A stretch of DNA of 64,000 nt from Boletus sp. NGJ (lineage: Eukaryota > Basidiomycota > Agaricomycetes > Boletales > Boletaceae): positions 20,743-84,742 of the forward strand of contig JAGTXK010000114.1 in the NCBI GenBank assembly GCA_019096195.1, given 5' to 3'. Under the pieces are notes generated by a model. That model was given only the letters and a program-made list of their open reading frames with translations. It was not told the DNA's origin and searched no databases. The translations under genes were made by a program, and so were the position numbers. This document shows positions 2,769 to 57,342 of the stretch, one piece after another. The number at the start of each line of letters is the position of its first letter. Position 1 is the stretch's first letter.

Positions 2769-5013
2769 TCATCTATGAGTGCTGTCTTCATTAGCTGACC
2801 CACAACACATCCACGCAGGAAACGCGATCGAAAGGATAGCCTTGTCTGACCGTCGCTGATTTGATCCAATATGAGTCCAATAGGTACGTGAAAAGAGGTG
2901 TGCGCACCGTGAGATGGACCGTCCCGGCAGACGGTTGAGATGAATCGTTCGCTTGTTGTGCCTAATAGAACGTGAGCTGTCATGATGTAGTCTATCACCA
3001 GAAAGAAGACTCACCTGGCTTGCTTCCGCTGGACTTGCAGCACCTTGTCTGCTATGAGAAGGACCTTTTTTCGGATGGGTGGGCTTTGTATTAGGCTACA
3101 ATGACTGATGAGTCCCTGTATACAAACTCGAGGAACAACGAACCTTTCGTTGTCGAACGGGTTTCGCCACCGCTCGCTAAGATGATGTGTTGGACACACC
3201 GCATCCAAATGTCCAGCAGGAAGAACACTCACTGGCACACGTTTAGTTGCAGCCATCCTCGATGGTCCCACATTTGAGTCTTCCACCTTCGCTAGTGGCT
3301 GTGAATGAGATTGATGATCAGCAGCCCGCCGCGACTCTCTGGAGATTCGAACGGGCAATGCTGGGTCCTTTTTACTCTTCCTGATCCTTGTTTTTAGCCA
3401 CTTTTTGAACATCTGGATACCCTGAGATGACTTGATACTGTCGCGATGTTCCTCCGGACACATCTCTGGAGGAGAGGTGACTGGCAGAGCATCCGACCGC
3501 TGTGCTACAGCAGGGGATAAGCCACGTGGTGGTACTTCATCCTCACGAGAATGAACAGAGGACACTGGGGACAGTGACTGCGGCAGGGTCAACATGGAGG
3601 GAAGAGGAGAATGCCGCGATGACCAACCTCATCGTAGTCGAACTGAGTAGCGGGCGTGGTCGTCGGCACCTCGACCTGTGTGATCGTGAGAACTCGCTTC
3701 AAGTGGAGAAATAACGAATGGATACCTCGAGGAGATCACCGTCGTCGTCATCGCTGCGGGCCTTGGACTTGAGTTGACCGGATCTCCCAGGCTCTTCCTG
3801 GAGTACATGCGCGATGACCAAGTCAGAGCGCCTCGTTTTGGGGACGGAAGAACAAACTCTTACTGAGTCAGTGTCAGATGTTTTATTGTCATGACCAGCC
3901 GAGGTCGAAGGCAGCTTGTCTGGTCGCCGTTCCTCGCGAGTGGATGCCTAACGTAGTATATCAACAGGGGTGACGGAACAGACATGCCAACACAGTCAAT
4001 GAACAAATACTTACATGGAAAGGACCATATGAGTCCGGGAGAATACTGCCGAGGTTGTGCACGTTGACTTTCCCGTGATCTTGACCAGTCGCAAGATAGC
4101 TACCATCTGGGGAGATTGCGATTGGGAAAATATATATATCTTCCCTCTCCTTGATGGTAGGGGCAATGTGAGAGAGAGTCGACGTGTCTAGGAACGAGAT
4201 GCCATGGTCTGCGACAGTAGCAATAAACTTGCCATTCGGTGCCAGAGAAATAGACTTGTGCTTCAAGTTGTCGCCATCGAGAGTGGGTGATTCAGCAATC
4301 TGGGACCCCGTGGATACATTGAAAGACCTGATTTTCTTGTCGTCCGATACAGTAAAAATGGATTGACCGTCGTTGGACCACGCGAGCGGGGTGATTGGCC
4401 ATATTGAGCATATAACGGTCTCGATGTCGATGAGTTGGTCTCCGTTGCGGCTGTCAAAAATGCGAACCGAGCCACCGTCACTGGAAGTAGCGATCTGTTC
4501 GCCATCTGGAGAGAACCTCACTCCCGTGACCGGTTCGTCATGTCTGAGCGGGCCAACGAGCCTCTTCCCACTTGATATGCTCCAGACGCTCGTTTGAATC
4601 GTTCCGCCTTGAGTCCCGGTGGCAAACTTGGCTGAGTCTGCGGAGACGTCAACTGCAGACACCCTGTTTCTCCCCTCCACCTCGACGACCTTTTCATCCA
4701 CCTCTGCATTCCACACTTGCGCCCCCTTGTCAGTCCCGCACACTACCCACTTATGATTCCTCGACACAGCAATGGCGTTGAAGTCCCACGTTGCCGTTTG
4801 CGTTCCGACCTGTTGGCCGTCGGCAAGTCGCCATCGTCGAATCCCATTACGACCACCGCCAAGAAGATGCTTTTCGTCTGGATGGAACGCAACTGCGTAT
4901 ACAGGGCCAGAGTCACCGGTCTCAAGTACTATTGTTGGGTCTTACTGAATTTCAGCATCGCACAATTATTATACTGCTCAGAACTACTACACACCGGTAT
5001 TTGTCGATGACAT
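2769..5013 (-). CDS. WD40-tail family protein A (premature stop in exon 7)
   Basis: Role unknown. WD40 propellers act as protein-interaction scaffolds; no enzymatic domain is visible. Exon 1 is 5013-4995 (MSSTNT, donor GTGTGT). Exon 2, 4940-4015, is one open WD40 exon with repeats such as VYAVAFHPDEKHLLGGG, VWNAEVDEKVVEVEG, VTGVRFSPDGEQIATSS and FPIAISPDGSYLATG. Tail exons follow on the minus strand: ASTREERRPDK (about 3950), a DYDE-ending exon (about 3630), a Pro/Ser-rich exon with KKWLKTRIRKSKK (3580-3230), the basic exon RAVAKPVRQRKVRC (about 3180), AQQANDSSQPSAGTVHLT (about 2970-2915) and the last exon ending FPAWMCCGSANEDSTHR at 2769. In the basic exon a TAG replaces the CAG found in paralogues (TTG TAG CCT, about 3100), so the last part may be untranslated. 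A YTM1 5' fragment lies divergently upstream. Another reading: pseudogene. Confidence 0.65.
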
Positions 5014-5204
5014 CCTCGTGAATGGTGCACAATCTTCGGGGGTTCAAAGACTGAAAAAATGATGTGTTTCGCTTTATGGTGCGCAAAGTCGCTGTGCCTT
5101 ATTCTCAATATGGGTCTGTTGCCTCGTGTCTTGGGCAGCTACTCTTGCTCGGATCCCTGCTCGGTGAGCCCCCTGCGACATCGCCACAGACAAAGTATGG
5201 GTTA

Positions 5205-5725
5205 ACCTTGGCGTCCACTTCCCTTGCAGTCCTATTCGCTGCCAGAATTTTCTATGTCCTCCCCTGCAAAAAAATATGGTTCCACTCTCGCAATTCGTCG
5301 AGAAAGCCCTCTTGGAAAAAAAAACCCCCGTTTGAATCCCATTCAATGTTTTCGATCGTGCCGCGATCGTACGAAAAAACCCTCGCGCAGAAAATAGGTA
5401 TGATCCATGCACGCATCGTGTCATGAACTGTGTACACGACAACCCTGTTCACAGTTAGGATTGGAAGACACAGCCAAGATGGAGTATCTCGAGTCGGTAA
5501 TGCAGCCGCAGCGGATGCTGACACTTCCGCACGAGGATTGGATTTCTTGTGTCGTATATCCCAGTACGCCTTTTTCAAGTTCCCCGTGTATCCCCATCTA
5601 CTCAAACGCGCTTTCTTCCGGACATATTCTAACTGCTTGTATGACCGTTGCACACGTTACATTGTGCAGCATTGGGAGATACACAATAGTACATAGGATT
5701 CACAAGACGAGGCGCATGTATATGT
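5205..5725 (+). pseudogene. YTM1 5'-half pseudogene, second copy
   Basis: Degenerate copy of YTM1 exons 1-3. The first part (5205-5400) matches the start of the NLE-domain exon (VLFAARIFYVLPCKK against VLFVTKTPYVLPSQK) with indels and frameshifts. Positions 5461-5545 match exon 2 in frame (EDTAKMEYLESVMQPQRM, TLPHEDWIS). Positions 5620-5660 resemble the exon 3 acceptor region. The copy stops there. It stands head-to-head with WD40-tail gene A, in the place that the partner ORF takes beside genes B, C and D. The shared WD40 upstream spacer (5030-5200) joins directly to it. Confidence 0.8.
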
Positions 5726-5809
5726 AGAACAAATATTCCAGTCACTGCTCAGAGGACCAACATCCTCTGCCGTTCGCCTCGGTGCTAGTGCTCATCCCTG
5801 ATCTCTACC

Positions 5810-9169: not shown

Positions 9170-11423
9170 TCAATGTGTCCCATCTTCTGTACCTGAACGC
9201 AAACACAACAACCACGCGGGGAACGTAAGCGAAAGGGTAGCCTTGCCCGATTCTCGCTGATGCTGATCTACTGTTAATCTCACAACACACGCTTAAGGAA
9301 AGTTCGCGCACCGTTAGATGGACCCCCCCAGCGGCAGGATGAGATGTGTCGTCCACTTGTTGTGCCTAATAGAAATGAGGTGTCATGACGTGGTTCATAA
9401 TAAGCAGAACAGACGCACTAGGCCTGCTTCCGTTGAATCAGCACGACCGTGCCTAGCATCCTTTTTCGGGTGGCTAGGACCAGTAGCCTTAGAAGACGAT
9501 TTAGGCTGTAACGTCCGATGAGTGCTTGCATATAAACTCGAGGAACAACGAACCTTTCGTTGTCGAACGGGTTTCGCCACCGCTCGCTAGAATGATATGT
9601 TGGACACACCATACCTGATTGTCTATTAAAGAAGAACACTCACTGGCACACGTTTAGTTGCAGCCATCCACGAAGGTCCCATATTTGACGCTTCCATCCT
9701 TGCTGGTGACTGCGAACGAGATTGGTGATCGGCAGCCTGACGCGACTTTCCGCGAACTCGATCGGGCTCGTGCAATGCCGGGTCCTTTTGACTCTTCCTG
9801 ATCTTTGTTTTTAGCCACTTTTTGAACATCGGAATACCCTGGGATGACCCGACAACGTCGCGATGTTCCTCTGGACGCGTCTCTGGAGGAGGGGTGACTG
9901 GCAGAGCACCAGACGGCTGTAGTACGGCAGGGGATGTGCCAAGTGGCGGTACCTCGTCTTCACGAGAATGGACGGAGGACACTTGGGACAGTGACTCCAG
10001 TAGGGTCAATACGGAGGGAAGAGGAGAATATAGTGACCACTAACCTCGTCGTAGTCAAACTGAGCAGCCGGTGTGTTCGTCGGCACATCGTCCTGTGCGA
10101 TCGTGAGAAGTCACTTCGAGGGGAAAAAAGAACGAATGGATACCTCGAGGAGATCGTCACCATCATCGTTACTGCGGGTCTCGGGCTTGTTTACACCGGA
10201 TTCCCCAGGCTCTTCCTGATGTACATGTGCGATGACCAAGTCAGCGCTCGTTTGGCGACAGAATGACAAATTCGTACCGGGCCGGATCCAGGTGGTTTCT
10301 TGTGATGGTCGGCCGAGGTCGAAGGCAGCTCGTCTAATTGTCGTTCCTCACGAGTAGATGCCTTATGTAGTGTATCAATGGGGAAGACAAAATGGACATA
10401 CCAACAGGTCAATGGATATATACACTTACATGGAATGGACCATAGGAATCCGGGAGAATGCTGGCGAGATTGCGTACGTTGATTTTCCCGTCCTCTAGTC
10501 CTGTCGCAATATAGCTACCATCCGGGGAGATGGTAATCGAGAATATATCTTCCGTGTCCTTAATGGCAGGGACAATGTGGGAGAGAGTCGACGTGTCTAG
10601 GAACAAGATGGAATGGCCTGCGTAGGTAGCAATGAATTTGCCATTCGGTGCTAGAGCGATAGACTTGTGGTCGCCGCCATCGAGAATCGGTGATTCAGCA
10701 ATCTGGGATCCTGTGGACACAGCAAAAGACCTGATTTTCATGTCGTCTGACGTGGCAAAAATTTGGAGAGCATCATCGGACCACGCTAGTGGAATGTTTG
10801 GCCATGTCGGAGGCGAGATGGTCTCGATGGTGATGACCTCGTCACCATTGCGAGCATTGAAGATATGGATGGAACCACCATAGCAGGCAGTGGCGATGTG
10901 GTCTCCAGTCGGAGAAAATTTGATTCCAGTGACAGATTTGTCATGTTCGAGCGGGCCAACGACTCTTTCCCCGCTTGTTATACTCCAGATGCTCGCCATT
11001 CTAGTCTCCAAACCAGTCCCGATGGCAAACCTTGTCGCATCTGGCGAGACGTCGACAGCATACACCTTTTGACTGCCCTCCACCTCGAAGGTTTTTTCAT
11101 GCATCTCCGCGTCCCACACGCTGGCCCCTTCGTCAGTCCCGCATACCACCCACTTGTGATCCCTTGACAATGATGTCGACACACAAATGGCGTTCAACTT
11201 CATTCCCGTTTCATTCCCGACCTCTTGCCCGTCTGCAAGTTGCCATCGCCGAATCCCACGATCGCCCCCACCCAAAACATGCATTCCGTCGGGGTGGAAC
11301 GTGATTGCGTATACAGAGTCAGAGTGACCAGTGTCAAGCACTATTGTTGGGTCTTGCCGAATTATCAGCATTCAACACAATCACTCCTCGGAACTGCTAC
11401 GCACCGGTTTTCGTCGACGACAT
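9170..11423 (-). CDS. WD40-tail family protein B (best preserved copy)
   Basis: Putative scaffold protein of about 600 aa, function unknown. Exon 1 starts at 11423 (MSSTKT). The donor GTGCGTAG gives way to a CAAG acceptor, with exon 2 at 11352-10430 carrying the WD40 propeller (VYAITFHPDGMHVLGGG, VWDAEMHEKTFEVEG, VTGIKFSPTGDHIATAC, FSITISPDGSYIATG). Exons 1 and 2 sum to 314 codons. Tail exons follow: ASTREERQLDELPS (about 10350), EEPGESG..., ...AAQFDYDE (about 10085-10045), the Ser/Pro/Glu-rich exon with FKKWLKTKIRKS (about 9990-9640), RAVAKPVRQRKVRC (from about 9590) with a Lys-rich end, AQQVDDTSHPAAGGVHLT (about 9370-9317), and the last exon RESGKATLSLTFPAW...DGTH, stop at 9170. No in-frame stop was seen. 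From exon 2 onward the borders are phase 0, so tail exons can be lost without a frameshift. A partner ORF lies divergently upstream at 11580-12240. Confidence 0.7.
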
Positions 11424-11579
11424 CCTGACGGGTGGTATACAGTCGTGGGGTTGAAAGAGCGGAAGAACGAGGTGTTTCGGTTTACTCGTGGTGCGCAAGG
11501 TTGCCAAACAAACACGTTTCCTTATGGTCCCGGGTCGTGGGTGCCCCGTGCCTTTTGTGCCTATTCTTACTCGGATTCG

Positions 11580-14877: not shown

Positions 14878-17115
14878 TCATCCATGGATTCCATCTCCGG
14901 TACCTGACCCACAGCACATCCATGTAGGAAACGCGATCGAAAGGATAGCCTTGTCTGTCCGTCGCTGATGTGATCCGACATGAGTCGAATAGGTAAGTTA
15001 GAGGAAGTGTGCGCACCGTGAGATGGACCGTCTCGGCGGGAGGATGAGACACGTCAATCATTTGTTGTGCCTAATAGGAAATGAGGTGTCATGACGAGGT
15101 TCATAATAACTAGAAACTGACGCACTGGACCTGCTCCCGTTGGAACTGCGTGACCTTGTCTATCACCAGATGCATCTTTTTTCGGATGGCTAGGGTCAGC
15201 AGTCTTGGTGGACGATTTAGGCTGTAACATCCGATGAGTGCCTGCGTATGAGCCCGAGGAACAACGAACCTTTCGTTGTCGAACGGGTCTCGCCACTGCT
15301 CGCTAGAACAATATGTATGTTAGACAAACCGCGTCCGATCGCCTATCAAGGAAGAGTACTCACGCGCACACGTTGACCTGCAGCCATCCACGAAGGTCCC
15401 ACGCTTGTGGTGCCCACTCTTGGTGGTGACTGCGAACGAGACCGGCGATCGACAGGCTGACCCGACGTTCCAGGAACACGATCGGGCTTGTGTGAAGTCG
15501 CCTCGTTCCTCTTTCTCGTCCTCGTCGGTACCCACCCTTTGAGCATTGGAATACCGTGAGATGAATTGGGAGTGTCAAGATTTTCCACTGGATGTGTCTC
15601 TGACGAGTGTGGGATGGCGTCAGACGCGCTAAGCGGAAGTACCTCGTCCTCGCGGAGATGGACGGAGGATGATGGGGAGTGGGACAGTGACTCCAGTAGC
15701 GTCAACACGGAGGGAAGAGGAGAATGTAGCGATGACTAACCTCATCGTAGTCGAACTGGGCGGCTGGCGTATTCGTCGGCACCTCGTCCTATGCAAGGGT
15801 GAAAAGTCACTTCAAAGGGGGGAATAACGAATGGATACCTCGAGGAAATCACCATCGTCATCTTTATTGCGGGTCTCGACCTTGAGTTGACCGGATTTCC
15901 CAGGCTCGTCCTGGTGTACATATGCAACGACGATGTGAGCGCAGCTCGTTTTGGCGACAGAGTGTAAACTCTTACTGGGCCAGAACCAGATGGCTTGTTG
16001 TCATGGTCGGTCGAGGTCGAAGGCAGCTCGTCGTGTTGTTGTTCCTCACGAGTGGATGCCTAACGTAGAAGGACGGAATTGGGCTTACCCGCCATGTCAA
16101 CATGGTCAATGATCAATTACTTACATGAAAAGGACCATATGAGTCCGGGAGAATGCTGTCGAGGTTCCGCACATTGAGTCTCCCGCTACCTTGTCCAGTC
16201 GCAAGATAGCTGCCATCCGGGGAGATTGCGATCGAGAATATAACTGCCCTGTTTTGGATGGCAGGGACAACGAGAGAGAGAGTCGACGCGTCTAGGAACA
16301 AGACGGAATGGCCTGCATAGGTAGCAATAAACTTCCCATTCGGTGCCAGAGCAATAGACCTATCGGAGCCACCAGCGAGAATCGTCGATTGAGTGAGTTG
16401 GGACCCCGTTGAAACAGCGAAAGACTTGATTGTCTGGTCGGCCGATACGGTAAAAATTTGTTGACCGTCGTTGGACCACGCGAGCGGAACGATTGAAATT
16501 GCTGCGGGTGAGATGGTCTTGATGTCGATGAGTTGGTCACCATTGTAACTGTCAAAAATGCGAACCGAGCCACCATGGCAAGAAGTAGCAATGTGCTCGC
16601 CAGTTGGGGAGAACCTGATACCCGTGACTCCACTGCCATGTTTGAGAGGGCCAACAAGTCTCTTCCCACTCGTTATACTCCAAATGCTCGCTTTTTTGTC
16701 AGGATATCCAGTCCCGGTGGCAAACCGGGACGAGTCTGGGGAGACATCGACGGTATACGTCCAATTTGTGCCCTCCACGTCGACGACCTTTTCATGTATC
16801 TCTGCGTCCCACACACTTGCGCCTGCGTCGCGAGTTCCACAGACTATCCACTTGTGATCCTTCGATACGGAAACGGTGCGCAGCTGCACTCCCGTTTGCA
16901 TCCCAACCTTTTGACCGTCTGCAAGTCGCCATCGTCGAATCCCATCACGGCCACCGGCCAGAAGATGTTTTCCGTCAGGGTGGAATACGACTGCCGCCAC
17001 CTCACGAGATCCACTGGTTTCTAGGACTATGGTTGTTGGGTCTTAGTGGATTGTCAGCATTGCATAATCGACGCCCTTCAGAACATTGCTACACACTGGT
17101 ATTCGTCGACGACAT
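14878..17115 (-). CDS. WD40-tail family protein C
   Basis: Same architecture as gene B. Exon 1 starts at 17115 (MSSTNT, donor GTGTGT after ACCA). Exon 2 starts at about 17040 (PTTIVLETSG) and ends at 16132 before GTAAGTAATTG. Propeller blades include VAAVVFHPDGKHLLAGG, VWDAEIHEKVVDVEG, VTGIRFSPTGEHIATSC and FSIAISPDGSYLATGQGSG. The tail has a DYDE-ending exon (about 15760-15740), a Ser/Pro-rich exon with KGWVPTRTRKRN (15700-15360), the basic exon RAVARPVRQRKVRC (about 15300-15130), AQQMIDVSHPPAETVHLT (about 15072-15020), and the last exon RRTDKAILSIAFPTWMCC...DGIHG, stop at 14878. No in-frame stop was seen. The exon corresponding to ASTREE is near 16045, and its borders are less clear than in B or E. 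A partner ORF carrying a MITE lies divergently upstream. Confidence 0.68.
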
Positions 17116-18992: not shown

Positions 18993-21233
18993 TCATCCAT
19001 GGGTTCCATCTTCATTGGCTGAGCCACGACACAACATCCATGCAGGTAGTCTGATAGAAATAGTAGCATCGCCCGATTCTCGTTGATCCTGATCCACTGT
19101 GAGTCTAGCAATGTAAGCTAAACGAAAGCACGCGCACCGTTACACGGATCCTCCCGGATGAGGGATGAGATGGTTGGTTCACCTGTTGTGCCTAATAGGA
19201 CGTGAACTGTAATGATGTGGTCTATCATCACCAGAAAAACAAGACATACCTGGCCTGCTTCCGCTGGATTTGCAGCACCTTGTTCACTATGAGAAGCGCC
19301 TTTTTTTGAATGGGTGCGCTTGGCCTTAGGCTGCAACGACTGATGAGTGCCTGTATATAACCTGGAAGAACAACAAACCTTTCGCTGTCGAACAGGTTTC
19401 GCCACCGCTCGCTAGAATGACATGTTGGACACACTACATCCGATTATCTATCTATCAAAGAGCACTCACTGGCACACGTTTAGTTGCAGCCATCCACGAA
19501 GGTCCCACGTTTAAGTCTTCCACCGGTGCTGGTGACTGGGAAAGAGATTGATGATTGGCAGCCTGACGCGACTTTCTGGAAACTCGATCGGGCTCATGCA
19601 ATGCCGCGTCCTTGTTACGCCTCCTGATCCGTGTCAGTAACAACCTTTTGAACATCGGAGTACCCTGAGATGACTCGGCAATGTTGCGATGTTCCTCTAG
19701 ATCCATCCCTGGAGGGGAAGTGGCTGGCAGAGCATCCGATAGCCGTGGTACAGCAGGGGATGTGTCAAGTGGCGGTACCCCGTCCTCACGAGAATGGACG
19801 GAGGACGCTGGGGACAGTGACTCCAGTAGCGTCAACACGGAGGGAAGAGGAGAATGTAGTGATGACTAACCTCATCGTAGTCGAACTGAGCAGCTGGCGT
19901 ATTCGTTGGTACCTCGTCCTATGCAATGGTGAAAAATTGCTTCGAGGAGGGAAAGAATAAATGGATACCTCAAGGAAATTACCATCGTCATCTTCGTTGC
20001 GGGTCTCGGGCTTGTGTAGACCGGATTCCCCAGGCTCTTCCTGGTGTACATGTGCGATGATCAAGTCAGCGCTCGTTTGGCGACAGAATGACAAACTCGT
20101 ACCGGGTCAGAACCAGATGGCTTGTTGTCATGGTCGGTCGAGGTCGAAGGCAGCTCGTCTTGTTGTTGTTCCTCACGAGTGGCTGCCTAATGCAGAAGGA
20201 TGAAATGAGGTTTACCCGACATGTCAACAAGGTCAATGATCAGATACTTACATGGAAAGGACCATATGAGTCCGGGAGAATGCTGCCGAGGTTCCGCACG
20301 TTGAGTCTCCCGCTACCTTGTCCAGTCGCAAGATAGCTGCCATCCGGGGATATTGCGATTGAGAATATTTCCTCCCTGTTGTCAATGGCAGGGACAATGT
20401 GAGACAGAGTCGACGCGTCTAGAAACGAGATGCCATGGTCTGCGACAGTAGCAATAAACTTGCCATTCGGTGCCAGAGAAATAGACTTGTGGTTGCTATC
20501 CGGAATTGGTGATATAGCGAGCTGGGACCCTGTTGACACGGCGAAAGACCTGATTTTCTTGTTATCCGACACGGTGAATATTCGTTGACCGTCGTTGGAC
20601 CACACAAGCGGAGTGATTGGAAATGTTGAGCGGGTGACGATGTTGATGTCGATGAGTTGGTCTCCATTGTGACTGTCAAAAATGCGGACCGAGCCACTAT
20701 AGCAGGAAGTGGCGATATGCTCGCCATCTGGAGAGAACCTCACTCCCGTGACACCTCTGTCGTGTTCGAGCGGGCCAACGTGTCTCTTCCCACTCGTTAT
20801 GCTCCAGATGTTCGCTTTTTTGTTAGGGTGCCCAGTCCCGGTGGCAAACCGGGACGAGTCTGGGGAGACGTCGACGGCATATATCCAATTTGTGCCTTCC
20901 ACGTCGACGACCTTTCCATGCATGTCTGCATCCCACACGCTTGCGCCTGCGTCGCGGGTCCCGCAGGCTATCCACCTGCCGTCCCTCGATACGGAAATGG
21001 CGCGCGCCTCCATTCCTGTTTGCTTTCCGACCTCTTGACCATCTGCAAGTCGCCATCGGCGAACCCCATTAGGACCACCGCCAAAAAGATGCTTTCCGTC
21101 GGGATGGAACGCAACTGCGTATACATAGCCAGAGCCACCGGTCTCAAGTACTCTTGTTGAGTCTTACTGAGTTGTCAACATCGCACAATCACTCTTCAGA
21201 ACATTGCCACGCACCGGTATTCGTCGACGACAT
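18993..21233 (-). CDS. WD40-tail family protein D
   Basis: Exon 1 starts at 21233 (MSSTNT, donor GTGCGTGG). Exon 2 starts at about 21165 (DSTRVLETGG) and ends near 20250 before GTAAGTATCTG. WD40 blades include VYAVAFHPDGKHLFGGG, VWDADMHGKVVDVEG, VTGVRFSPDGEHIATSC and FSIAISPDGSYLATGQGSG. Tail exons are ASTREEQQ-like (about 20185), EEPGESGLHKPETRN...GNFLE (20044-19970), TNTPAAQFDYDE (about 19910-19871), the Ser/Pro-rich exon with FKRLLLTRIRRRN (19822-19460), RAVAKPVRQRKVCC (about 19410-19245, donor GTATGTC), AQQVNQPSHPSSGRIRVT (about 19190-19137), and RESGDATISIRLPAWML...DGTHG with its stop at 18993. The exon-2 propeller is nearly identical in places to that of C, which suggests recent duplication. 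No in-frame stop was seen. Confidence 0.68.
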
Positions 21234-26682: not shown

Positions 26683-28447
26683 TTACAATAGGTCAGCTAG
26701 CGCGGCCATCTCGGTTCCACCAGACTCCCGAATACCGATTTCCCAATCTGCACGACGGATGACATCAGCTGCAAACAGAACGATGAAAGAACGAGACACG
26801 CACAGCTGTAGATAATGGTGACTGCCATAAGGATACCTGTTCCACTACCAATCGCACCCATCAAGTCAGCAAAGACGGACAAGAGCCCGAGAATGGCCCC
26901 TCCAAAGGCAGCAGCAGTGGGGATCACGCGCTTCAGTTCCTTGTACATCGAACCTTCACGGTGGCCAGCCATGACCTGTAAGTCATACGCCGTCAGCACC
27001 GCACAAGAACAGCTTCAAATATAGGCGCTGACCATCTGTTGATCCTTGAGCTGTTTGGCAATGTCCCGAGGACCACTTCCTGAAACTTCAATCCAAGTCT
27101 TGGAAAAGAGAGCGCAAGCAGAGACTACAAAGGCGACATAGAGAGCAGTATGGATGGGATCAAGGAGGGCTTCTTTCATAGTATGAGGGGGGGACATGTA
27201 GTAAGCGATACCAGAGACAGCACGAAGCTGTGGCGAGTCTTCTGCGGGCTATGTGATCATGTGGTTGATAAACTCTCATGATTGTATAAAACACTGCGAC
27301 TGACCTCCCATACACCAACGAGCTTGACCAAAAAGTTGGACGGGAAGCGCGAAGCAAGCATCTGAGAGATGATGAAGACGTTGGAAGTAAGGGCAGACTG
27401 GAGCATGATGGGCATGTTGGATGTGTAGAAGAGTTTTACAGGATACGAGCCACGTTGCCCACGGAAGCGGTTGCTCTTGACAGGGATTTCAATGCGGAAG
27501 CCTTGCAAGTAAATAACAACGGCAAAAACGACAGCAGTGGCAATCAAGTTCATTATGTTCGGGAGACGGTCTCGCCAGAAGGCCTCGCGTAGCGCACGAC
27601 CCTTGTCGTTCCAGGTGAAGCAGAGGTGGAAGAGGGCAACAACTGCACCTTCAAACTCTGGACCACGACCGGTGTTGACAGTCGTCGGGGAGAATGCCTT
27701 CCAGATAATGGTTTCGCAAATGTTGGTAGCGATGAAAAGAGAGATACCGGAGCCAAGACCATAACCCTTCTGGAGGAGCTCATCAAGTAAAATGACGATG
27801 AGAGCTGCGACGATAAGCTGAATGATGAGCAACAAGCAAATACCAGCGCTTAAGTCCTTGGGTTGCCCGTAAAGACCGGTGAGGACATAGACAGTAGCCT
27901 GACCGAGAGCGATAATGAGAGCGAACACTAAAATTTTGGTCAGCAAAACGTTTTCAATGTTCGGGTAGCCCAAGGTAAAGACCCACATTTCTGTGCACCA
28001 CCGAAAAGAGCACGATCTTCCTTCAAGCTAAAGTCAACTTCGATCAAGTTTGCACCAGCCAAGAGCTGCATGATCATTCCACTAGTGATAATTGGGCTGA
28101 TACCGAGTTCCATGAGTGTACCGCGATTTGAAGCAAGGATGACACGCATCCAGTACAGAGGGTCGGCCGAGTCGGAGGACATGATTCCATAGAGCGGGAC
28201 TTGGGAACAGACCAAGAAAATAAGAAGCGTTACCGCGGTCCATAGTAGCTTTTGGTTGAATGGTACCTGGCGGAAAATGAGAAATACCATTGTTGAACGC
28301 TGTTGGTCACGTACCTTGCGGTCTGGGGAAGAGACTTCAGGCAGAAGTGGAAGGAAAGGTCGGACGAGATTCAAAAACCGGACTTTAGAGGAAGGTAGTT
28401 AGCAAATCTACACCACGTAGGAGAAAAGGTGACTTACACCCGCTCAT
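26683..28447 (-). CDS. SEC61: Sec61 alpha, protein-translocation channel subunit
   Basis: Pore-forming subunit of the ER translocon; imports secretory and membrane proteins. Exon 1 is only 10 nt (28447-28438, MSG plus one base, donor GTAAGTC). It joins exon 2 at 28382 to give the family N-terminus [20 protein letters not shown]. Further conserved blocks are [19 protein letters not shown] (plug region), [128 protein letters not shown], and [20 protein letters not shown]. The last exon (from about 26757) reads [21 protein letters not shown] with its stop at 26683. The length of about 475 aa equals the usual 470-480. All catalogue blocks are present and it should be functional. Confidence 0.95.
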
Positions 28448-28675: not shown

Positions 28676-30959
28676 TCAAAGCGTACATTGTTTGAAATGT
28701 GCGTTCACAGCAGACCTCACAAGGAGCGGGATAGACGCTCTCGTGATCTGCTTCCCGCACCTGTAACAGAAATGCGTGTTGCATCCTGGTGTCGCGCACT
28801 GAGTGGCGGCGTTACAAAGAGAATGTACATCAACAATGGTCTGAGACGGCCTTGTAACACCAATGTTCGACTCACCGTCATATGATTGCATCCCCCATTC
28901 TTTTGAACCGGAGTTCTGCATTCTGTGACCGAGGATCACCGACTCATTTCCGACGCCGAGATGAGCATTGAAAGAAACGCGCTTACTTGGACAGTACTTC
29001 CATCCCATCTGTTTCACGAGGTAGTCCAGCTCCTCCGCTCCGTCGCAAGAGTGTTTCAGTTTACCTCCCGAAAGACTTTGCTGACAGTTTTTGCACCAGG
29101 TATGCCTGCATCCTGGGAACGGACAACGGAGCTCTTCCGATTGTTCATAATCTTCCTTGTCGACGAACGCCGAGCGATTGCACCTTGGGTCACATGAGTT
29201 CCAGGTTCGGACAATAGTTAGGTCTACCCGTCGATCACCTGCGACAATGTACCCGCACACACAAATGTGCCAATTCGAGCTCAGACCAGATCGCATACTG
29301 TGACTCGGATACCCCGAGTCGTTGAACCAAAGTTCCAGACACGACTGTTCGTGATCCTCATCAGCAACCGCCTACGATTCGATCGGCTGCTGCTACTCAC
29401 CAGAAGGACTGGCGTTTCCCTGTTCGGCCATGCATAGCGGGCAGAACACAGGGAACTTACGTTCCTCGATCTTTGAACAAACATGTCCTACAAGACAACC
29501 CCTACAGAATCCGTGAGCACAAGGAAGAAGGTGAATCCCTTTCTCCTCAGGTATGTCTTCAAAACAGATCACGCATTCAAAACATGCTTCTTCGTCAGAC
29601 CCTTCATACGAAAGCGAGGTGGGGATGGTGCTCGTGCTCGTAGGCGCAGACGATTCATCATCTGAAAAGAATATCCGGCAGTATCGTTTGGTCTGCTCGT
29701 ATGGTATAAACGTCGTCTTCGGGCGTGGTTTTTCCATGCGCACACTTGACCCTTCTCCCAACGACCCGACACCGACACCGCCAGCGTACCCGCGGCTTGT
29801 CGTTGGCTCAGCCCCATCGACGTCAAACGGAGTCCTTTTCCGTAGCTCTCTCTGGCTTGATCCGGAGGGTTGATCGCTTTGGCGTCGGTTTCGGTCTCTT
29901 TTTCCATCTCTTTCTCTCTCCCGATCCCGTCCTCGATCGTCTATTTCCCCCATGACCCTCAACAACGCAACGCTTTCGTTGATCGCCAACGACTCTGCAT
30001 CTGACAACATCACAACCCCTTCAGCAGGTGTAAACATACATATCGTACAGCTCGTAAACAGCTGGGCCTGCCACCGCCTATCGCGTGTCACCAAGTGGTT
30101 ATCGACCGGCAAGATCCCCGACATGCGGGCGGCTGTTTGTTCCAAGGACGTGCTGATCACAAGGGCAAGCGTCGCACCGTGCTCCGAAGCGAGGGCGAGA
30201 TCGAGTACAAGAAAGACGTCTTTGAAATTTTCGCGGAACTTTAGACATACAGTCGTCCCTGAATTGCGGCTCACGACGATGGCTGAGACGGGGGAGGCAT
30301 GTAGTTGCATTTGCCTACCAAAAGAAGAAGGAAAGGAAAGGAAACATATGTGAGTAGTCCACTTTATTGAAAATGACAAAATCAGAGACAACGACTGACC
30401 GCAATGATTGTTTGAGGAGGATCATACTCGGAGGGCCGTGCTTGGTCGCAACGTGCACGAGCGGACCCTCGAATAAAGGAATGCGATACATTTCCTCCAA
30501 CTGAATTGCCTGCTCGCTGGTCAACTGTTCGCACGGAGACAACATCTCCTAAACATGCGCGACAAGTCAAGCGTCAGCACCGACCGTCTCTCGACGATCC
30601 AAATCCACGTCAACAACCCCTGACCCACATACCTCGAGGACGTGCCGTTCCATGATGACACTCAACCATCGCACCATGCTCGGGCTCGAGGCCCCTCGCG
30701 TGCGCTGCATGTGCTTAAACGCGACGCGCACGAAATTCAGCGCGGCAAAGTGACATGCCGAGAGGGTTCGACATGGGTAGCGTCGGATGTCTACGAGGGG
30801 GAGAATGCGTTCTTTTCCTGAAAGAACGTCTTTGACGACTCCGCCGTGATCTGTACCGAACCATGCGGACAGGCGTTCGCCAAGCATGAGGTGAAGACGT
30901 TTGGAGGTTTGAAGGCTGAGGGAGGAGATGAACCCCCCACCCGGGTGTGTGTGCCTCAT
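28676..30959 (-). CDS. RING-IBR-RING (RBR) E3 ubiquitin ligase, paralogue 1
   Basis: RBR-type ubiquitin ligase: RING1 binds the E2, and the Cys of RING2 forms the ubiquitin thioester. N-terminal exons (30959-30410) encode an unnamed domain shared with the neighbour at 31287-33350 (FAALNFVRVAFKH.. and MYRIPLFEGPLVHVATKHG). A second exon (about 30340-29930) continues it (VSRNSGTTVCLKF, SGILPVDNHLVTRDRRWQAQ). Then comes an Arg/Asp/Glu-rich linker and RING1: CVICFEDIPEEKG..CAHGFCRGC..CPLCM (29570-29420). The IBR follows (RCPFPGCRHTWCKNCQQSL, HSCDG). After splicing, RING2 reads KYCPKCRTPVQKNGGCNHMT, then C-x4-CNTHFCYRCG (29010-28740), with a stop at 28676. RING2 CNHM-T-C holds the expected catalytic Cys. 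The start is uncertain: the ATG at 30959 is the first in frame, but a later Met near 30885 is possible. Confidence 0.75.
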
Positions 30960-43276: not shown

Positions 43277-44859
43277 ATGGCCGCCACGTCCGCTGCGGTT
43301 CTATTCGTTACCAAAACTCCCTATGTTCTCCCCTCCCAGAAATTTATGATCCCGCTCGACTGGAAACGCTACCAACTCTCGCAACTCATCAACAAAGCCC
43401 TCTCTCTCGCAAAACCCATCCCATTCGACTTCCTCGTTCGTGGCGCGATCCTACGAACCAACCTCGAAGAATGTCGCGCAGAAAATGGTATCAGTGAGGT
43501 ACGCATCACATCAGCGAGCGGTATGGATTGTGTGCACGACAACCTTGTTGATGGGCAGGACAGGAAGACACGCTCGAGATCGAGTATTTCGAGTCGGTGT
43601 TGCCGCCGCAGCGTATGACGACGCTTCCGCACGAAGATTGGGTCTCCTCTATTTCGTGTCGTATATCTCAGTGCGTCTCTTTTTCGTGTATCCTCATCGC
43701 ACCCATACGTACTTTCTTCCAGACATTTTCTAACCGGTTCGTATGACGGTCACATCCGCCTCTTTGATTACGCGCAACAATTGGTCCGGGACGTTCCAGC
43801 GCACCAGGCACCCATCACTTCTGTCTGTGTTGTCCCGTCCTTTGGATCAACAGACGAGTCTGTGGTCATCGCGAGCACCTCACACGATCTGACCGCTTCC
43901 CTCACCCGCATCTCGCTCCTACCCGATGCATCCCCATCCTCCCAAGACCTCGCCTCACTCCACCTCCACACCTCGCCTCTATCTTCCATTTCCTCCGATC
44001 ACACTGGGTCCCATCTCCTCACTGCATCCTGGGACCACCTCATCGGGTTCTGGGACACCACCATCCCTGCCCAGGACGAAGTGGAACCCACATCTGACCT
44101 GGCTTCCTCTTCTGAACGCAAAAAACGGCGCAAGATAGCCAGCGAGGCTGACCAAGGGCACGCAAAACGCAAGGCGCCCACGACCGTACTCAAGTCCCAT
44201 ACGGCACGTGTGTCCAAAGCGGACTTTGCCCCTGGATCGATCGAGCGGGCGTATAGTTGTGGATTCGACTCGACGGTGCGGACGTGGGACGTGGAGTCTG
44301 GTGTGTGTATGGATACGATCGTACGTCTTTCGTCCTTGTCGTTTTTAGGTGACATGAAAAATCAACCTCATGCTGGTTCCCGTTTCGTTTGATCCTTGTC
44401 GTATAGGCTGTTCCTGAACGACCGATGCTCGATCTCGTGGTTACACCTGACGGACACACCGTCCTCGCGGCCTCTACGGACCGGACCGTCTCCATCTTTG
44501 ACCTCCGTTCGCCCTCGCTCACGAGTACAGCAGGAACGCTCATGCACCCCGCCACACCATCCTGCCTGGCCTATCCCGGTGCCGCACCGACCTTATCCCA
44601 AAACGCCAACACCAACGAAACCTTGCCCTCGCCCCCAAACCCGAGCGCACCTCAAGTCCTGACAGGCGCCTACGATGGGATCGCCCGTCTATGGGATCTT
44701 CGAAGCATGAAGAGCGCTGTCGCGAGCGTCAAAGCATGGGACGGTACCCCCAAGAAGATTTTGGGCGTCGATTGGGCGGGCGAGGTCGTTGGGGTGGGTG
44801 GGGAAGGTGGAGTTGAGATATGGCGAGTCGGCCAGGGGGATCGGGTATTATCCAAGTGA
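43277..44859 (+). CDS. YTM1: Ribosome biogenesis protein Ytm1 (WDR12)
   Basis: Subunit of the Erb1-Nop7-Ytm1 (PeBoW) complex needed for 60S maturation; removed from pre-60S by the AAA ATPase Rea1, which binds the N-terminal NLE domain. Four exons in consistent phase: 43277-43498 (NLE domain, QLSQLINKALSLAKPIPFDF, EECRAENGIS), 43564-43670 (EDTLEIEYFESVLPPQRM), 43723-44320 and 44407-44859; 459 aa, the usual length. WD40 repeats include LTGSYDGHIRLFDYAQQL, LLTASWDHLIGFWDTT, AYSCGFDSTVRTWDVESG, VLAASTDRTVSIFDLRS, VLTGAYDGIARLWDLRS and a last blade ending VEIWRVGQGDRVLSK. A basic insert KKRRKIASEADQGHAKRK may be the nuclear signal. This is the only intact copy. Broken pieces of it occur at 1500, 5205, 46299, 48475 and 63270. 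Confidence 0.95.
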
Positions 44860-45589: not shown

Positions 45590-46172
45590 TCAGCCTCACT
45601 CTTCGAAGCCGACGACAGCATATCACCGCTCCTAGTTCAACCACCGGCTTATACTTGTTGCTGCACGAAGGATGGGTGGGAAACGTGTGCGAATGAGTGT
45701 TCCTCGTTGATAGACGATCTCGGATCGGCGGTGCGTCTAACATGTCATTCTAGCCAACGGTCAAAAAACGCTTTTCAATACCACCCGTGGTGTGTTGTTT
45801 CTCGAGTTTTGCATGCAGGGATTCATCAGGTTACAGCATAAATTGCCGAAACGTCCCAAAGAAGATACTTCTCATAGCGGACGAGGTTCTGCAGGTCCGA
45901 AGGAAGCGGGTCCGGTGCGTCTTTTACAAAGTAATGTGTTCTGTGTCAGGATAGCTTATTTCCTGTTAGGCGGAACAAGCAGACGACTCCGAGTCATCTC
46001 AGCCCTCCGCTGCGAGGGCCCAAGGGACGGTGCGGCGTACTTTCCTTACGCTTATAATACGAGACTTACAGCGGATCAACATCAGGAAGAGTCAGGCAAG
46101 GGTACCATTTTCAGGCTTCCCGCTTGGATGTTCTGCACGCGTAGTTCACATATCGGAGATGGGACACATTGA
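45590..46172 (+). pseudogene. WD40-tail relic G (propeller deleted, tail exons kept)
   Basis: The upstream spacer of the WD40-tail family (CACACCACGTGTAAACCG..CACTCTTCGAAG) joins directly to the end of exon 6 (GGATGGGTGGGAAACGTGTG, donor near 45690). The tail exons follow: the basic exon near 45750-45915 (with a stop at the TTACAGCATAA position), the exon with GCGGAACAAGCAG (about 45973-46025), and the last exon from 46088: EESGKGTIFRLPAWMFCTRS, then GDGTH with a stop at 46170-46172. Start codon, propeller and exons 3-5 are missing. The same fusion point is found in H and F. Confidence 0.7.
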
Positions 46173-46298
46173 TCCAGTTTATTCGATATAATAACATGTA
46201 CATATTATGCCGAACTGTGATATGCGTACGAGTTCGTGTCTCCTTACAGTACTATTAGGAGCACAAATCCTCATAGGCCTGTCCAGGACTGAGCTCGT

Positions 46299-47700: not shown

Positions 47701-47714
47701 GTGCTGATGGAGCG

Positions 47715-48353
47715 GCTTTGCACACCACGTGTAAATCGAGATACCACGTCTCCTCACCCTTCGAAGTCGACGACGGCGTACCACCTCCTAGTTCAACGTT
47801 TAACCACTAACTTGTACTCGAAGGATGGGTGGGAAACGTATGCGAGTGAGTCTTCCTTTTTGATAGACGAACGGATGCGGCGGTGCGTCTAACATATCAT
47901 TCTAGCGACCGGTCGCAAGACCAACGGTTTGTTGTTTCTCGAGTTTGTATATATGCAGGAATTCATCAGACGTTACAGCATAAAGCGCGTGCTAAGAGTC
48001 CCAAGACTACTGTTCCGAAATATCCCAATAAAGATGCGTCTCGTAGCGGGCAAGGTTCTGCAGATCCGGGGGAAGCAGGTCCGGTGCGTCTTTTGTATAG
48101 TATTGTGTCCCATGTCACGATAGCTTATTTCCTCGCAGGCGCAACAAGCAAATAACCCATCTCAGCCCTCCGCTGGGAGGGTCCATGTAACGGTGCGCGT
48201 TCCCTCAGCTTATATCATGAGTTTATGAGACTTATAATAGATCAGCATCAGCAAGATACAGGCGACGCTATCATTGCGTTCAGGTTTCCCGCCTGGATGT
48301 GCTGCTTGCGTAGCTCACATATCGGAGATGGGACACATTGATCTAGTTAATTC
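47715..48353 (+). pseudogene. WD40-tail relic H (propeller deleted, tail exons kept)
   Basis: Same fusion as relic G: spacer (CACACCACGTGTAAATCG..CACCCTTCGAAG) joined to the end of exon 6 (GGATGGGTGGGAAACGTATG, donor GTGAGTCTT). The basic exon is open here (HQTLQHKARAKSPKTTVPKY, then NKDASRSGQGSADPGEAG; 47905-48089). The VHLT-type exon is at about 48139-48190. The last exon after ATCAG at 48247 reads QDTGDAIIAFRFPAWMCCLR, then GDGTH, stop at 48353. The start and propeller are missing. Confidence 0.7.
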
Positions 48354-48720: not shown

Positions 48721-48828
48721 GTGGGAAAAAAAGGGGCAAGTAATCTTAAGGGATAGATATAGAATATCGATAATCTGAACATACCTCCTACCGTACGGAT
48801 CCGCATTCGTAGTCGGAGCTTTCAGAGA

Positions 48829-49450: not shown

Positions 49451-49515
49451 AGATACTAAGAATTGATGCCGAGGACGTCGGAACAGACCATCGAGACATT
49501 GAGAATCTGGTAAGG

Positions 49516-50404
49516 ATGTCGTTAACGAATATCGGTGCGTGACAGTTATGAAGAGTGGTTGAGCAATGCTGAGAATTCAGTAAGACCAAACGATAGTCCT
49601 TGACACCGGTCACACTGACTGGGTATATGCAGTCGCATTCCACCCTGACGGAAAACATTTTTTAGGCGGGGGCATGGGTGGGATTCGACGATGGCGACTC
49701 GCGGACGGTCAACAGGTCGGACAGCAAACGGGAATGAGCTTGCGTGTAAGGCAACGCCGCGCTTATCTAGCTTTGCGCAGCACCGTGGAAACCGAAATAC
49801 CACGTCTCCTCAAGGCCTCACCCTTCGAAGAGAGTCGACGACAGCGTACCACCGCTCCTAGTTCAACCACCAGCTTGTACTTGTTGCTGCACGAAGGATG
49901 GGTATGGGAAAAGTGCGCGTGAGTGTTCCTCTTCAATGGACGATCGAATGCGGTGCGTCTAACATATCATCCTAGACATTGGTCTCCGGACCATTGGTTT
50001 GTTGTTTGCTCGAGTTTGTATGCAGGGATTCATCAGAAGTTACAGCATGATGGTAAATCGCCTGTCAAGGCTGCTGTTCCGAAACATCTCAACGAAGATG
50101 CGTCTCGTAGTGGACAAGGTTCAACTGCAGAACCGAAGGAAGCAGGTTTGGTGCGTCTTTTCACAGTATCGAGCCACAGGTCACGATATCGATATTATTA
50201 GGCGCAACAAGCAAATGATCCATCTCAGCCCTCCGCTGGGAGGATCCATGTGACGGTACGCGTCCCTTAAGCTTATATTATAAATTCATGAGACTTACAG
50301 TGGAACAGCATCAGAAAGACACAGGCGACGCTATCATTGCATTCAGGTTTCCCGCCTGGATGCTCTGCCTACGTAGCTCACATATCGGAGATGGGACACA
50401 TTGA
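49516..50404 (+). pseudogene. WD40-tail relic F (first blade kept, rest of propeller lost)
   Basis: Exon 1 (49516, MSLTNI, donor GTGCGTGAC) and the start of exon 2 (about 49588-49743: TIVLDTGHTDWVYAVAFHP, then GGGMGGIRRWRLADGQQVG) are intact. The sequence then passes into upstream-spacer sequence (TTTGCGCAGCACCGTGGAAACC..CACCCTTCGAAG) and the same exon-6 fusion as in G and H. The basic exon (AGIHQKLQHDGKSPVKAAVP, 49976-50154) is open. The last exon after ATCAG at 50314 reads KDTGDAIIAFRFPAWMLCLR, then GDGTH, stop at 50402-50404. It looks like a deletion relic placed behind a second 5' end. Confidence 0.72.
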
Positions 50405-53980: not shown

Positions 53981-54319
53981 ATCGAGCGTTTTGTATAGGA
54001 ACAGAGAACGAGCACTAACACTGGGGCATCGATGGGCTGTGGTGGATGGTGGTACCGAACGGTGACTCGAATATTTATTCTACCTATGCATATGCCTCGT
54101 CATCTGAGCTCAACGTATCATGTATCTCCCGACGCTGCACAATGTAGGGATTGTCACGAGGGAGCTTCTACTCCACACATGCAATGACACCAATCCCCGG
54201 ACCCAACAAGACCGATAAGCGCCACTCACCCAAGGATCCAATGAGAGCAATATTTCGGTTTATCACAAGATCCGACCGCATACCAAACTGAACTTTAATG
54301 ATTTCTCGGAAATGCGATT

Positions 54320-55030
54320 TTACCCATCCTCAACTCCTCGAAGGTGTGCGCGTACATCTGGTGTGGACATTGATCCACGTGTCCACCTTGGTTGCTGGAG
54401 AGACGAGGGGAAGGCGCTTCAAAGTTGCTTTGGGGGGAAAGTAGTACGAGAATACGACGTACGCTCGATCACACTGGCCCAGATACCGTATTGGTAAAAG
54501 GCGCCTCCAAGAGCTCAGCATAGTACTTGAAAGCAATCTCCAGTGTTTCTGTGGGTTTCGTGTGGATGCCAGCGATATATTATACAGACAGTGGTGAAGC
54601 CGGGAACTTGGCGTTGGATATCCAAAGCCATTCCTGGCGTCGACCAGATGTTTGTGAGAGCGCAACATTCGACCCACAGAGAAAGCACATACAAATGAAT
54701 AGGAACGTGACGTGGTTTGAATTTGAGGTTGGGTAGGGAACTGACAAACAATCATTTCGCATCCAGTGGAGAACATGCCCCCAGAGTATAAGCAATCCCT
54801 GTTCGAGAACGTGACAAATATGCACACGCGTTGCGTGCGGTATATGGCGAGTGGGTCTAATTGTGGATGAACACTGATCGTAAGCCGAGTCCTGCAGCCG
54901 ATGCATGACGAGCACTCACAAGTCGAAATGCCTGCCTTGTGGTCGCAGTGAGTTAGTATGAGCGCCCAAGACACGAGGCACCTGTGTGAACAAAACCAAT
55001 TTGAGAATAAGGAAACGTGTCCATACAGCA
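54320..55030 (-). pseudogene. Partner ORF, divergent from WD40-tail gene E
   Basis: Minus-strand copy beginning about 70 bp upstream of gene E. Blocks: an altered equivalent of the LILxxxVLxK segment (QGLLILWGHVLHWM, about 54810-54755), PETLEI-like sequence before KYYAELLEAPFTNTVSGPV (54535-54470), followed by an in-frame stop in the simplest reading, then FPPKATLKRLPLVSPATKVD in another frame (about 54430-54370). It shares the GGTGGACACGTGGATCAATG segment with the copy at 22050. Probably decayed. Confidence 0.45.
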
Positions 55031-55099
55031 ACTTTGCACACCACGAGCAATCCGAAACACCATTTTCTCACTCTTTGAACCCCAAGACTGTGTACTGGG

Positions 55100-57342
55100 A
55101 TGTCATTGACAGGGACTGGTGGGTAGCATTGTTCTGAAGAGTGATTGCGCGATGCTGACAATTCAATAAGACTCATCAATAGTACTTGACATCGGAACCT
55201 CTGACTATGTACAAGCAGTCGCATTCCATCCTGACGGGAAGCATCTGTTGGCCGGGAATTCGAATGGGGTTCGACGATGGCGACTTATGGACGGCCGAGC
55301 GGTCGGAAAGCAGACAGGAATGCATTTGTTCGCCATTTGCGTGTCGGGAGATCGCAAGTGGGTGGTCTGTGGGGCTCTCAAGGGAGGCGCAGGCGTGTGG
55401 GATGCAGACATCCAGGAAAAGGTCATCCATGTGGAGGGCACAAACGAGGTGTGGGCAGTTGACGTCTCCCCAGACTCGACTAGATTTGCCACTGGCACTG
55501 GATGGGATGACAACAAAGCGAGCATCTGGAGCATAACGAGTGGGAAGAGACTCATTGGCCCGCTCCAATATGACGAACCGGTCACAGGAATCAGGTTCTG
55601 CCCAAATGGCGAGCAGATTGCCACTTCCAGCTATGGTGGCTCGGTCCGCATTTTCGACTGTCACAAGGGGGACAAGCTGCTTGACATTAACATGAACACA
55701 CGGTCATCTTGGCCAATCACTCCGCTTGCATGGTCCAATGACGGTCAACAAATTTTTGCTGTGTCGAACGACAAGAAAATCAGGTCTTTCACTGTGTCCA
55801 TGGGGTCCCAGCTCGCTGAATCGCCGGTCCTCAACGTTTACTCTCTCTCTCTAGCTGGCAATGGAAATTTTATTGCTACTGTCACAGATCATGCCATCAC
55901 GTTTCTAGACTCATCAACTCTCGCCAAGATTGGCTCTGCTATCAAGGACAGCGAAATAATGTGGTCCATCGCCATCTCCTCAGATAGCAGCCGAATTGCA
56001 ACTGGTCGACGCGACGGGAAAATTATCATACATAACCTCGCCGACTTTCTTCCAGACTCGTATGGTCCTTTCCACGTAGGTATTTGTCCTTTCATCGTGT
56101 CAGATAAGCACCACTCCACCTCCCATGCTGATAACATCAGGCACCTACTCACGAGGAACATCAGCCGGACGAACAGCTTTCGACCTCGGGTGGCCGTGAC
56201 AATAAACCATCTGGCTCCCAGCCGGTAAGTGTTTGTCATTCTGTCACGAACACGAACTGCGCTGACGTCATTGCATATATCAGGAAGAACCGGGAAAATC
56301 CAATCGACGCAAGTCTGAGATGGATAGCGAAGTCGGTAGTAGTGATCTCCTCGAGGTATCTATCTGTTCGTCCTTTTTTCAATGGAAGTGACCTCTCATG
56401 ATCGCATAGGTCGACGTGCGGTCGAGTGCACCCGGTCCTCAGTTCGACTACGATGAGGTTGGTCATCACTATATTCTCCTGTTTCATCTGTGTTGACATT
56501 GCTGAAGTCACTGTCGCCCGTGTCTTCTGCCCATTCTCGTCAGGATGACGTACTGCCCCATGGTGAACCACAGTCGTCAAATGCCCTACCCACTGCTCCC
56601 CCTCCAGAAGCACGTCGAGACGAAAATCTTGATACTCCCAGGTTGTCCCAGGGTATTTCTTTGCTCAAACGGTGGATCCCAACAAGGATCAAAAAGCAAA
56701 ACAAGGTCCCGGCTTTGCAAGAGTCCGATCGAGTTCCCAGAGAGTCACATCAACTTCCCGATCTTGGATCTCCTTCGCAACCACCAGCGAGAGTAGATTC
56801 CAATTCCACGAAGCAGGGACCGTCGTGGATGGCGGCAGGTAAACGTAAGCGAGTGAGTGCTCTTCCTTGATAGACGATCCGACGTGTGCGACTAACGTAC
56901 GATCTTAGCGAGCGGTTGCAAAATCTGTACGAAAACCAAAGGTTTGTTGTTCCCCGAGTTTCTATGCAGGGACTTATTAGATGTGACAGCCTAAATTGCC
57001 TGCCAAGGCTTCTGTTTCGAACGATCCCAACAAAGATGCTTCCCGTAGCGGAAAAGGTCCTGCAGATCCGAGCGAAGCAGGTCTCGTGCGTTATTTCGTG
57101 GCTGTTATAGACCATGATGGCTCATTTCATATTAGGCGCACCTAGTGAACAACGCATCTCAACCCTCCGCTGGGGGTGTCCATCTCACGGTATGTGTTCT
57201 TTCTTTACGCTCAAATTGTGGGACTCATGGTGGATCACATCAGCGAGAACCGGGCAGGGCTGTCCTGAGATTCTCGATCGCATTTCCTACGTGGATGTGT
57301 TGTGGCTCAGGTACCGGGGATGGGACGCATTCATCCAGCTGA
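55100..57342 (+). CDS. WD40-tail family protein E (nine-exon model; stops in exon 7)
   Basis: The clearest exon model of the family. Exons: 55100-55118 (MSLTGT), 55171-56075 (WD40 propeller: VQAVAFHPDGKHLLAGN, VWDADIQEKVIHVEG, VTGIRFCPNGEQIATSS, WSIAISSDSSRIATG), 56141-56224, 56284-56355, 56410-56457 (ends FDYDE), 56508-56852 (Ser/Pro-rich, LLKRWIPTRIKKQNK, ends AGKRKR), 56909-57085 (basic RAVAKSVRKPKVCC), 57136-57189 (ends GGVHLT) and 57244-57342 (RFSIAFPTWMCCGSGTGDGT, stop 57340-57342). All lengths fit phase 0 after exon 2; the model would give about 600 aa. Exon 7 contains TAG and TGA (about 56968-56976: TAT TAG ATG TGA CAG) where paralogues have CAT CAG and TTA CAG, so the product may end early or the copy may be dying. 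It is the only large family member on the plus strand. Confidence 0.72.

Follow-up and report, generated by a model that had tools for sequence, protein, structure and literature searches.

A 64-kb stretch of the genome of Boletus sp. NGJ (the window; contig JAGTXK010000114.1, positions 20743-84742, labelled C70:20743-84742 in this analysis of a 32.8 Mb, 141-contig genome) carries a family of genes that combine a WD40 propeller with a long conserved tail. An earlier examination of its letters alone (hereafter the sequence-only reading) had counted five large copies and three relics in the window, and all eight were confirmed. The five large copies, genes A to E, are intact. Models were made by chaining AG/GT-bounded exons onto exon templates read from gene E, and all five spliced models were open from ATG to stop, encoding proteins of 565-573 amino acids.

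Gene A (2769..5013, minus strand, 10 exons, 571 amino acids) consists of exons 1-5 at 5013-4995, 4940-4015 (propeller), 3947-3864, 3797-3726 and 3675-3628, and exons 6-10 at 3541-3233, 3176-3144, 3095-3015, 2961-2908 and 2855-2769. Gene B (9170..11423, minus strand, 10 exons, 572 amino acids) has exons 1-5 at 11423-11405, 11352-10430 (propeller), 10361-10278, 10215-10144 and 10092-10045, followed by exons 6-10 at 9952-9644, 9586-9554, 9505-9419, 9365-9312 and 9256-9170. For gene C (14878..17115, minus strand, 10 exons, 565 amino acids), exons 1-5 lie at 17115-17097, 17041-16125 (propeller), 16059-15976, 15910-15839 and 15788-15741, and exons 6-10 at 15648-15364, 15302-15270, 15221-15126, 15070-15017 and 14964-14878. 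Gene D (18993..21233, minus strand, 10 exons, 571 amino acids) is built from exons 1-5 at 21233-21215, 21162-20252 (propeller), 20186-20103, 20040-19969 and 19918-19871, with exons 6-10 at 19784-19470, 19411-19379, 19330-19250, 19191-19138 and 19088-18993. Gene E (55100..57342, plus strand, 10 exons, 573 amino acids) comprises exons 1-5 at 55100-55118, 55171-56075 (propeller), 56141-56224, 56284-56355 and 56410-56457, and exons 6-10 at 56544-56852, 56909-56941, 56990-57085, 57136-57189 and 57244-57342.

Exon 1 measures 19 nt in A-E and encodes MSSTNT, MSSTKT or MSLTGT. A codon is split at its border with the propeller exon (905-926 nt), and all later borders are in phase 0. Eight tail exons follow, of 84, 72, 48, 285-315, 33, 81-96, 54 and 87-99 nt. 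The 19-nt first exon, the single propeller exon, the phase-0 borders of the tail exons and the fixed order of the tail modules had all been described in the sequence-only reading and were found in the five models. The same reading had proposed seven tail exons and nine in all, and this had to be revised to eight and ten. Its sizes for the tail exons of E were right for 84, 72, 48, 54 and 99 nt; the exon given as 345 nt is 309 nt long, and the one given as 177 nt is made of 33 nt, a 48-nt intron and 96 nt. This intron, between exons 7 and 8, measures 48 nt in each of A-E; left unspliced, it contains stop codons in A and E and none in B, C and D. Over the 58 tails modelled in the genome (56 places, two being counted twice) its length ranges from 41 to 66 nt and is not a multiple of three in 15 cases, the flanking phase being kept. 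Because of the stops in A and E and of these lengths, which leave the phase intact, the genes have ten exons and not nine. If kept in B, C or D, the intron would insert 16 residues in frame.

Genomic copies and selection on the propeller

When the propeller of D was used as query and the best candidates were scored, at least 128 places were found in the genome. Two of them (44% and 41% identity) are relatives linked to a HET domain; tail-family propellers occupy at least 126 places, the window five included, and are at least 47% identical to that of D. The median gap between neighbouring places is 7.8 kb. Distinct copies are fewer than 126, since several sets of places score equally (C19/C103, C15/C42/C81, C71, C22/C75 and others), having arisen either by segmental duplication or by duplication in the assembly; the comparison by sequence covered the tails of two such pairs, L016/L017 and L026/L027. 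Equal-score copies were seen inverted or repeated on C22 (~161-325 kb), C71 (63-87 kb), C19/C103, C15/C42/C81 and C35/C50.

The modelling covered 72 of the 128 places, 71 belonging to the tail family: the best 30 and then the first in contig order. A whole tail model (score at least 450) was obtained at 56 of the 71 tail-family places; 41 of these are also open in exon 1 and the propeller, 36 with the usual first intron and length. At the remaining 15 places the propeller or tail is broken, the stretch ends early, or the script missed the tail. After removal of duplicates, 54 distinct copies were used in the tail analyses. Searched as a degenerate DNA pattern, the motif of the last tail exon (FPxW(M/L)xC) matched 49 times in the genome and not once with the reversed control, and 37 of the 49 matches sit 1.1-2.2 kb downstream of a same-strand propeller, so that the family is more than a product of chance. 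The other 12 matches have no scored propeller upstream. Two of them are relics G and H of the window, and inspection of two more gave a tail relic on C117 and a probable chance match on C40.

PF00400 (WD40) was detected in A-E with E-values of 2e-25 to 4e-29, above the Pfam cut-off. AlphaFold2 was run on the five window propellers. For that of D (20252..21160, minus strand), the predicted local distance difference test score (pLDDT) was 84.2 and the predicted template-modelling score (pTM) 0.87; by our own reading of the strand list, the predicted structure is a ring of seven WD40 blades in which the N-terminal strand would close blade 7. The best match of the propeller in the PDB was the WD40 domain of Thermomonospora PkwA (5yzv, TM-score 0.86 normalised by query), which is 25-26% identical and which, like seven-bladed WDR5 and G-beta, resembles the family in fold only.

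Replacement changes counted by parsimony were concentrated in two kinds of loops: 28 per site in the b-c loops and 22 in the d-a loops, against 7-10 elsewhere. At the 65 sites of the top loops the ratio of nonsynonymous to synonymous rates (dN/dS, omega) was 0.91 (95% range 0.77-1.07); it was 0.34 at 65 sites of the bottom loops and 0.38 at all other sites. The difference between top and bottom was equalled in none of 10000 permutations. Sites were then classed with a home-made FUBAR-like grid of synonymous (alpha) and nonsynonymous (beta) rates on 50 open distinct propellers, the posteriors coming from our own script and not from HyPhy. The probability that beta exceeds alpha was above 0.9 at 20 of 299 sites, and the probability of the reverse was above 0.9 at 192. 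Seventeen of the 20 diversifying sites fall in the d-a or b-c loops (background 65/299, p 6e-10), and the other three (94, 225 and 266) are first residues of strand a. Six null simulations with beta capped at alpha returned 0, 1, 0, 0, 0 and 0 such sites, and when the thirds of the propeller were given separate trees to guard against recombination, the number was 21. By these computations the top face of the propeller is under diversifying selection, and the core and the bottom face evolve below the neutral rate.

Paoletti and others (PMC1805685) reported positive selection at four codons of the Podospora WD repeat, 7 and 9 in the d-a loop and 25 and 27 in the b-c turn, all of which map to the top face. 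The equivalent sites were fixed here by aligning the blades with the Podospora pattern. Blades 1, 3 and 6 contributed no b-c pair because their loop length differs, and one of the eight remaining b-c sites lies in a gappy column. The choice owes nothing to the codon model, but it was made after the parsimony counts were known and so is not free of every earlier inspection of the data. At these HNWD-equivalent sites beta/alpha was 2.44 in the d-a loops (14 sites) and 1.69 in the b-c turns (7 sites); the remaining sites had 0.47. The excess was present in all bands of divergence: for 4 pairs with dS below 0.15, 21 pairs with dS of 0.15-0.35, and 95 and 758 more diverged pairs, omega at the equivalent sites was 2.24, 1.80, 1.22 and 1.25, and outside the top loops 0.42, 0.33, 0.30 and 0.26. 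The family is thus akin to the HNWD/NWD genes of Podospora anserina (HET-E, HET-D, HET-R) in its variable WD40 propeller, in top-face selection at equivalent sites and in being a multigene family. It differs from them in lacking both NACHT and HET, in its long conserved tail and in its size (more than 100 places against ten members). The repeats of HNWD/NWD genes are highly identical, reflecting concerted evolution, whereas the blades of the tail family are far from identical (9-37% between blades of D, mean 25%, D alone being measured).

HET-bearing relatives and the tail

The sequence-only reading had compared the genes with fungal NACHT-WD40 incompatibility genes, adding that no NTPase was present. 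The absence stands. No NACHT domain was found N-terminal to the propeller in A-E, which is preceded by just the 19-nt exon (NB-ARC was not searched for), and no tail-family copy is next to any of the genome's 8 NACHT matches; the NACHT-WD40 genes of this genome share WD40 repeats with the family and are not its neighbours. The likeness to a fast-evolving recognition family is supported at the level of sequence by the at least 126 places and the positive selection on the top face. The nearest relatives are of a kind that the earlier reading did not foresee, namely WD40-TPR-HET genes.

Only one relative (L082, C114:88343-91414) was read through in full: its propeller is followed by TPR-like repeats, which at E 5e-5 fall short of the Pfam cut-off, and by a HET domain (PF06985, E 1.4e-12). 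In another (L073, in part C59:38215-41084), TPR-like repeats were seen by eye. Among the 21 non-tail propellers found, 14 are followed on their own strand by a HET match at a distance of 1.66-2.86 kb (12 when two same-score pairs are merged) and 7 are not; of the 126 tail-family propellers, none has a same-strand HET match within 4.5 kb downstream. The HET-linked propellers are 34-48% identical to those of the tail family; these proteins of the same genome carry a homologous propeller with TPR-like repeats and HET instead of the tail. A protein tree was built from 50 tail-family and 6 HET-linked propellers, with 4 WD arrays as the outgroup, only three of which adjoin NACHT matches. Supports were read unrooted and the root is rough, as two outgroup rows start before their WD arrays. 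The 50 tail-family propellers all group in a single clade (support 1.0), and tail-family plus HET-linked propellers are split from the outgroup (support 1.0), so that in this roughly rooted tree the three NACHT-side arrays and the further one lie outside the tail and HET group. The closest relatives in the genome are the WD40-TPR-HET proteins, and the tail family is a separate clade without HET. The simplest history is a WD40-TPR-HET ancestor, a single swap of TPR-HET for the tail, and massive duplication afterwards; the opposite direction of change would be a less simple possibility.

The tail is about 255 amino acids long, acidic in exons 3-5 and basic in exons 6-8. Its consensus landmarks are qFDYDe, SsqG..fKrW, GPSwMAA, RaVAk, VHlT and the end fP.WM.C..SgT.DGTH. 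Within the end motif FPxW(M/L)xC..DGTH, the cysteine near the C-terminus is kept in 53 of the 54 distinct tails. Neutral evolution of the tail exons was not found: pooled dN/dS for each exon, the comparison suggested in the sequence-only reading, was below the neutral rate throughout, with values of 0.19-0.62 among A-E and 0.16-0.64 in the wider divergence bands. Third codon positions are the most variable in each tail exon, and the introns show no such common pattern. In the codon model, omega for the tail was 0.72 and omega = 1 was rejected (twice the log-likelihood difference 377); of 256 sites, 67 were under purifying and 6 under diversifying selection. The tail is therefore maintained, if loosely.

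The tail is probably disordered, as its mean hydropathy (0.385) is below the Uversky boundary (0.415). A prediction for the largest tail exon (exon 6) gave no confident fold (pLDDT 57, pTM 0.11). The view that the tail cannot be assigned to any named family was borne out: no significant Pfam match was obtained for the tails of A, D and E (best E 0.35), and no PDB chain matching the tail of E was found. The family may resemble bolete proteins labelled just as WD40-repeat proteins, which would carry a similar Cys-Cys...DGxH end.

The relics of the window lie between D and E. Relic F (45855..46178, plus strand) retains late tail exons with the last-exon motif, and relic G (47916..48347, plus strand) tail exons with the end FRFPAWMCCLRSSHIGDGTH; a propeller match was found in neither. 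Relic H (49584..50401, plus strand) keeps only a first-blade stretch of the propeller, followed by late tail exons. F, G and H have a common last exon (SSHIGDGTH end), unlike A-E, and perhaps form a small tandem subfamily. CpG decay was not seen in the relics (observed/expected 0.97-1.04, window 0.99), and no telomere was found at the window end (zero TTAGGG in the last 2 kb). The GC content of the window is 50.0%. Unrelated genes among the copies encode a SecY/Sec61 core (27257-28027, minus strand), a RING-finger protein (29393-30421, minus strand) and another WD40 protein (43619-44392, plus strand). Elsewhere in the assembly, the sole 5.8S rRNA match (L079, C81:1729574-1729740) looks decayed, with an ITS2-like stretch that resembles those of boletes; the assembly may lack intact rDNA.

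Candidate function and alternatives

Well-studied fungal recognition propellers sit on NLRs. The proteins described here are neither NACHT NLRs nor HET proteins, and they look built like the sensor half of such systems. We infer, with a probability of about 0.58, that A-E belong to a large NTPase-less recognition family in which the HET or NTPase effector has been replaced by a conserved, disordered tail. By analogy with HET-D/E, the top face would bind partners. In each copy this variable face would recognise some non-self or modified-self protein, itself variable, that is met when hyphae fuse or microbes are encountered. The common tail would couple binding to a common downstream partner, possibly at a membrane through the conserved cysteine or cysteines, S-acylation of the Trp-Cys end being a guess from the motif. 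The HET-bearing sister proteins would be the obvious candidate effectors, and other death effectors are also conceivable. On this view the family would be what a HET-type incompatibility or immune system uses for recognition, cut loose from the death domain and expanded in number. A HET domain alone is reported to be enough to trigger cell death (PMC10197012). A more specific scenario is tentative and rather doubtful: non-self recognition in boletes would rest on more than 100 single-propeller sensors that shed their HET or NTPase effector. A shared disordered tail, possibly anchored by a lipid, would pass their signal to a few HET-bearing sisters, a sensor-helper split without NTPase that would be convergent with plant sensor/helper NLRs.

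Several points weigh against the proposed recognition role. The single-site counting test flagged 6 of 295 sites at p<0.05, which is chance level, and the pooled top-loop omega is close to 1, so that relaxed constraint could explain part of the excess. The middle sites between the selected pairs, strongly conserved in Podospora, are not so in the tail family: their mean beta/alpha was 1.13, and middle site 70 was itself flagged. The comparison is among paralogues and not alleles, with non-independent pairs, and divergence for another role is possible. The modelled copies are not a random sample of the 128 places, and branch support for the HET-linked propeller nearest to the tail family was 0.39. 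Membrane anchoring and partnership with HET proteins are guesses.

Among the alternatives, the one that survives best, though we consider it unlikely, is recognition of a host plant or symbiont. On this view the propellers would take part in the signalling of ectomycorrhiza, for example as G-beta-like WD40 proteins, and their diversity would answer to partners in the plant or the rhizosphere and not to other fungal individuals. In Suillus, also of the Boletales, more than two thirds of the host-specific unique genes are related to G-protein signalling, including G-beta WD40 (PMC5065116), and in the bolete Phlebopus portentosus WD40 is the first-named Pfam count, with 237 genes (PMC12028679). 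These expansions, and that of Laccaria as cited there, resemble the present one in their many WD40 genes; the published accounts, in their available portions, mention neither this tail nor the selection pattern nor a HET relationship. Against host recognition, the nearest relatives in the genome bear HET, a domain of incompatibility and cell death, and the N-terminus is, by eye, unlike a secretion signal. G-beta subunits have an N-terminal coiled coil that pairs with G-gamma; A-E have none and no room for one, because exon 1 provides six residues before the propeller exon.

Less probable still are decoys or regulators, that is, HET-less copies that compete with the WD40-TPR-HET receptors for ligands and damp cell death, their number and top-face variation tracking those ligands. 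Homologous propellers do occur both with and without HET, and in five cases a copy and a HET gene lie within 10 kb (two with equal scores and spacing). A decoy has no obvious need, however, of an eight-exon tail conserved below the neutral rate, and tail-family copies outnumber HET-linked propellers by about 9:1 (at least 126 against 14). Least probable is relaxed birth-and-death, in which copies multiply by segmental duplication and drift and the variable loops are just unconstrained: relics, truncated copies and duplicates, an overall omega of 0.38-0.50 that seems high for a WD40 protein, and the pooled top-loop omega and weak counting test discussed above all agree with it, but it leaves unexplained omega above 1 at the HNWD-equivalent sites in all four divergence bands, 20 diversifying sites where null simulations gave 0 or 1, and a tail omega below 1.

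A description of this family was not found in the literature searched, of which little was subscription literature and part was available only in excerpt. A paper of 2021 (PMC8229728) describes the mechanisms of somatic incompatibility in basidiomycetes as completely unknown. Since 237 WD40 genes are listed in one published bolete genome, the same family may hide there under generic names. With more than 100 places, selection like that of the HNWD genes, relatives that bear HET and a tail of stereotyped make-up, the present family provides a concrete, testable set of candidates. It shows the top-face strategy without NACHT, and its sequences suggest a large repertoire for self/non-self or microbe recognition.

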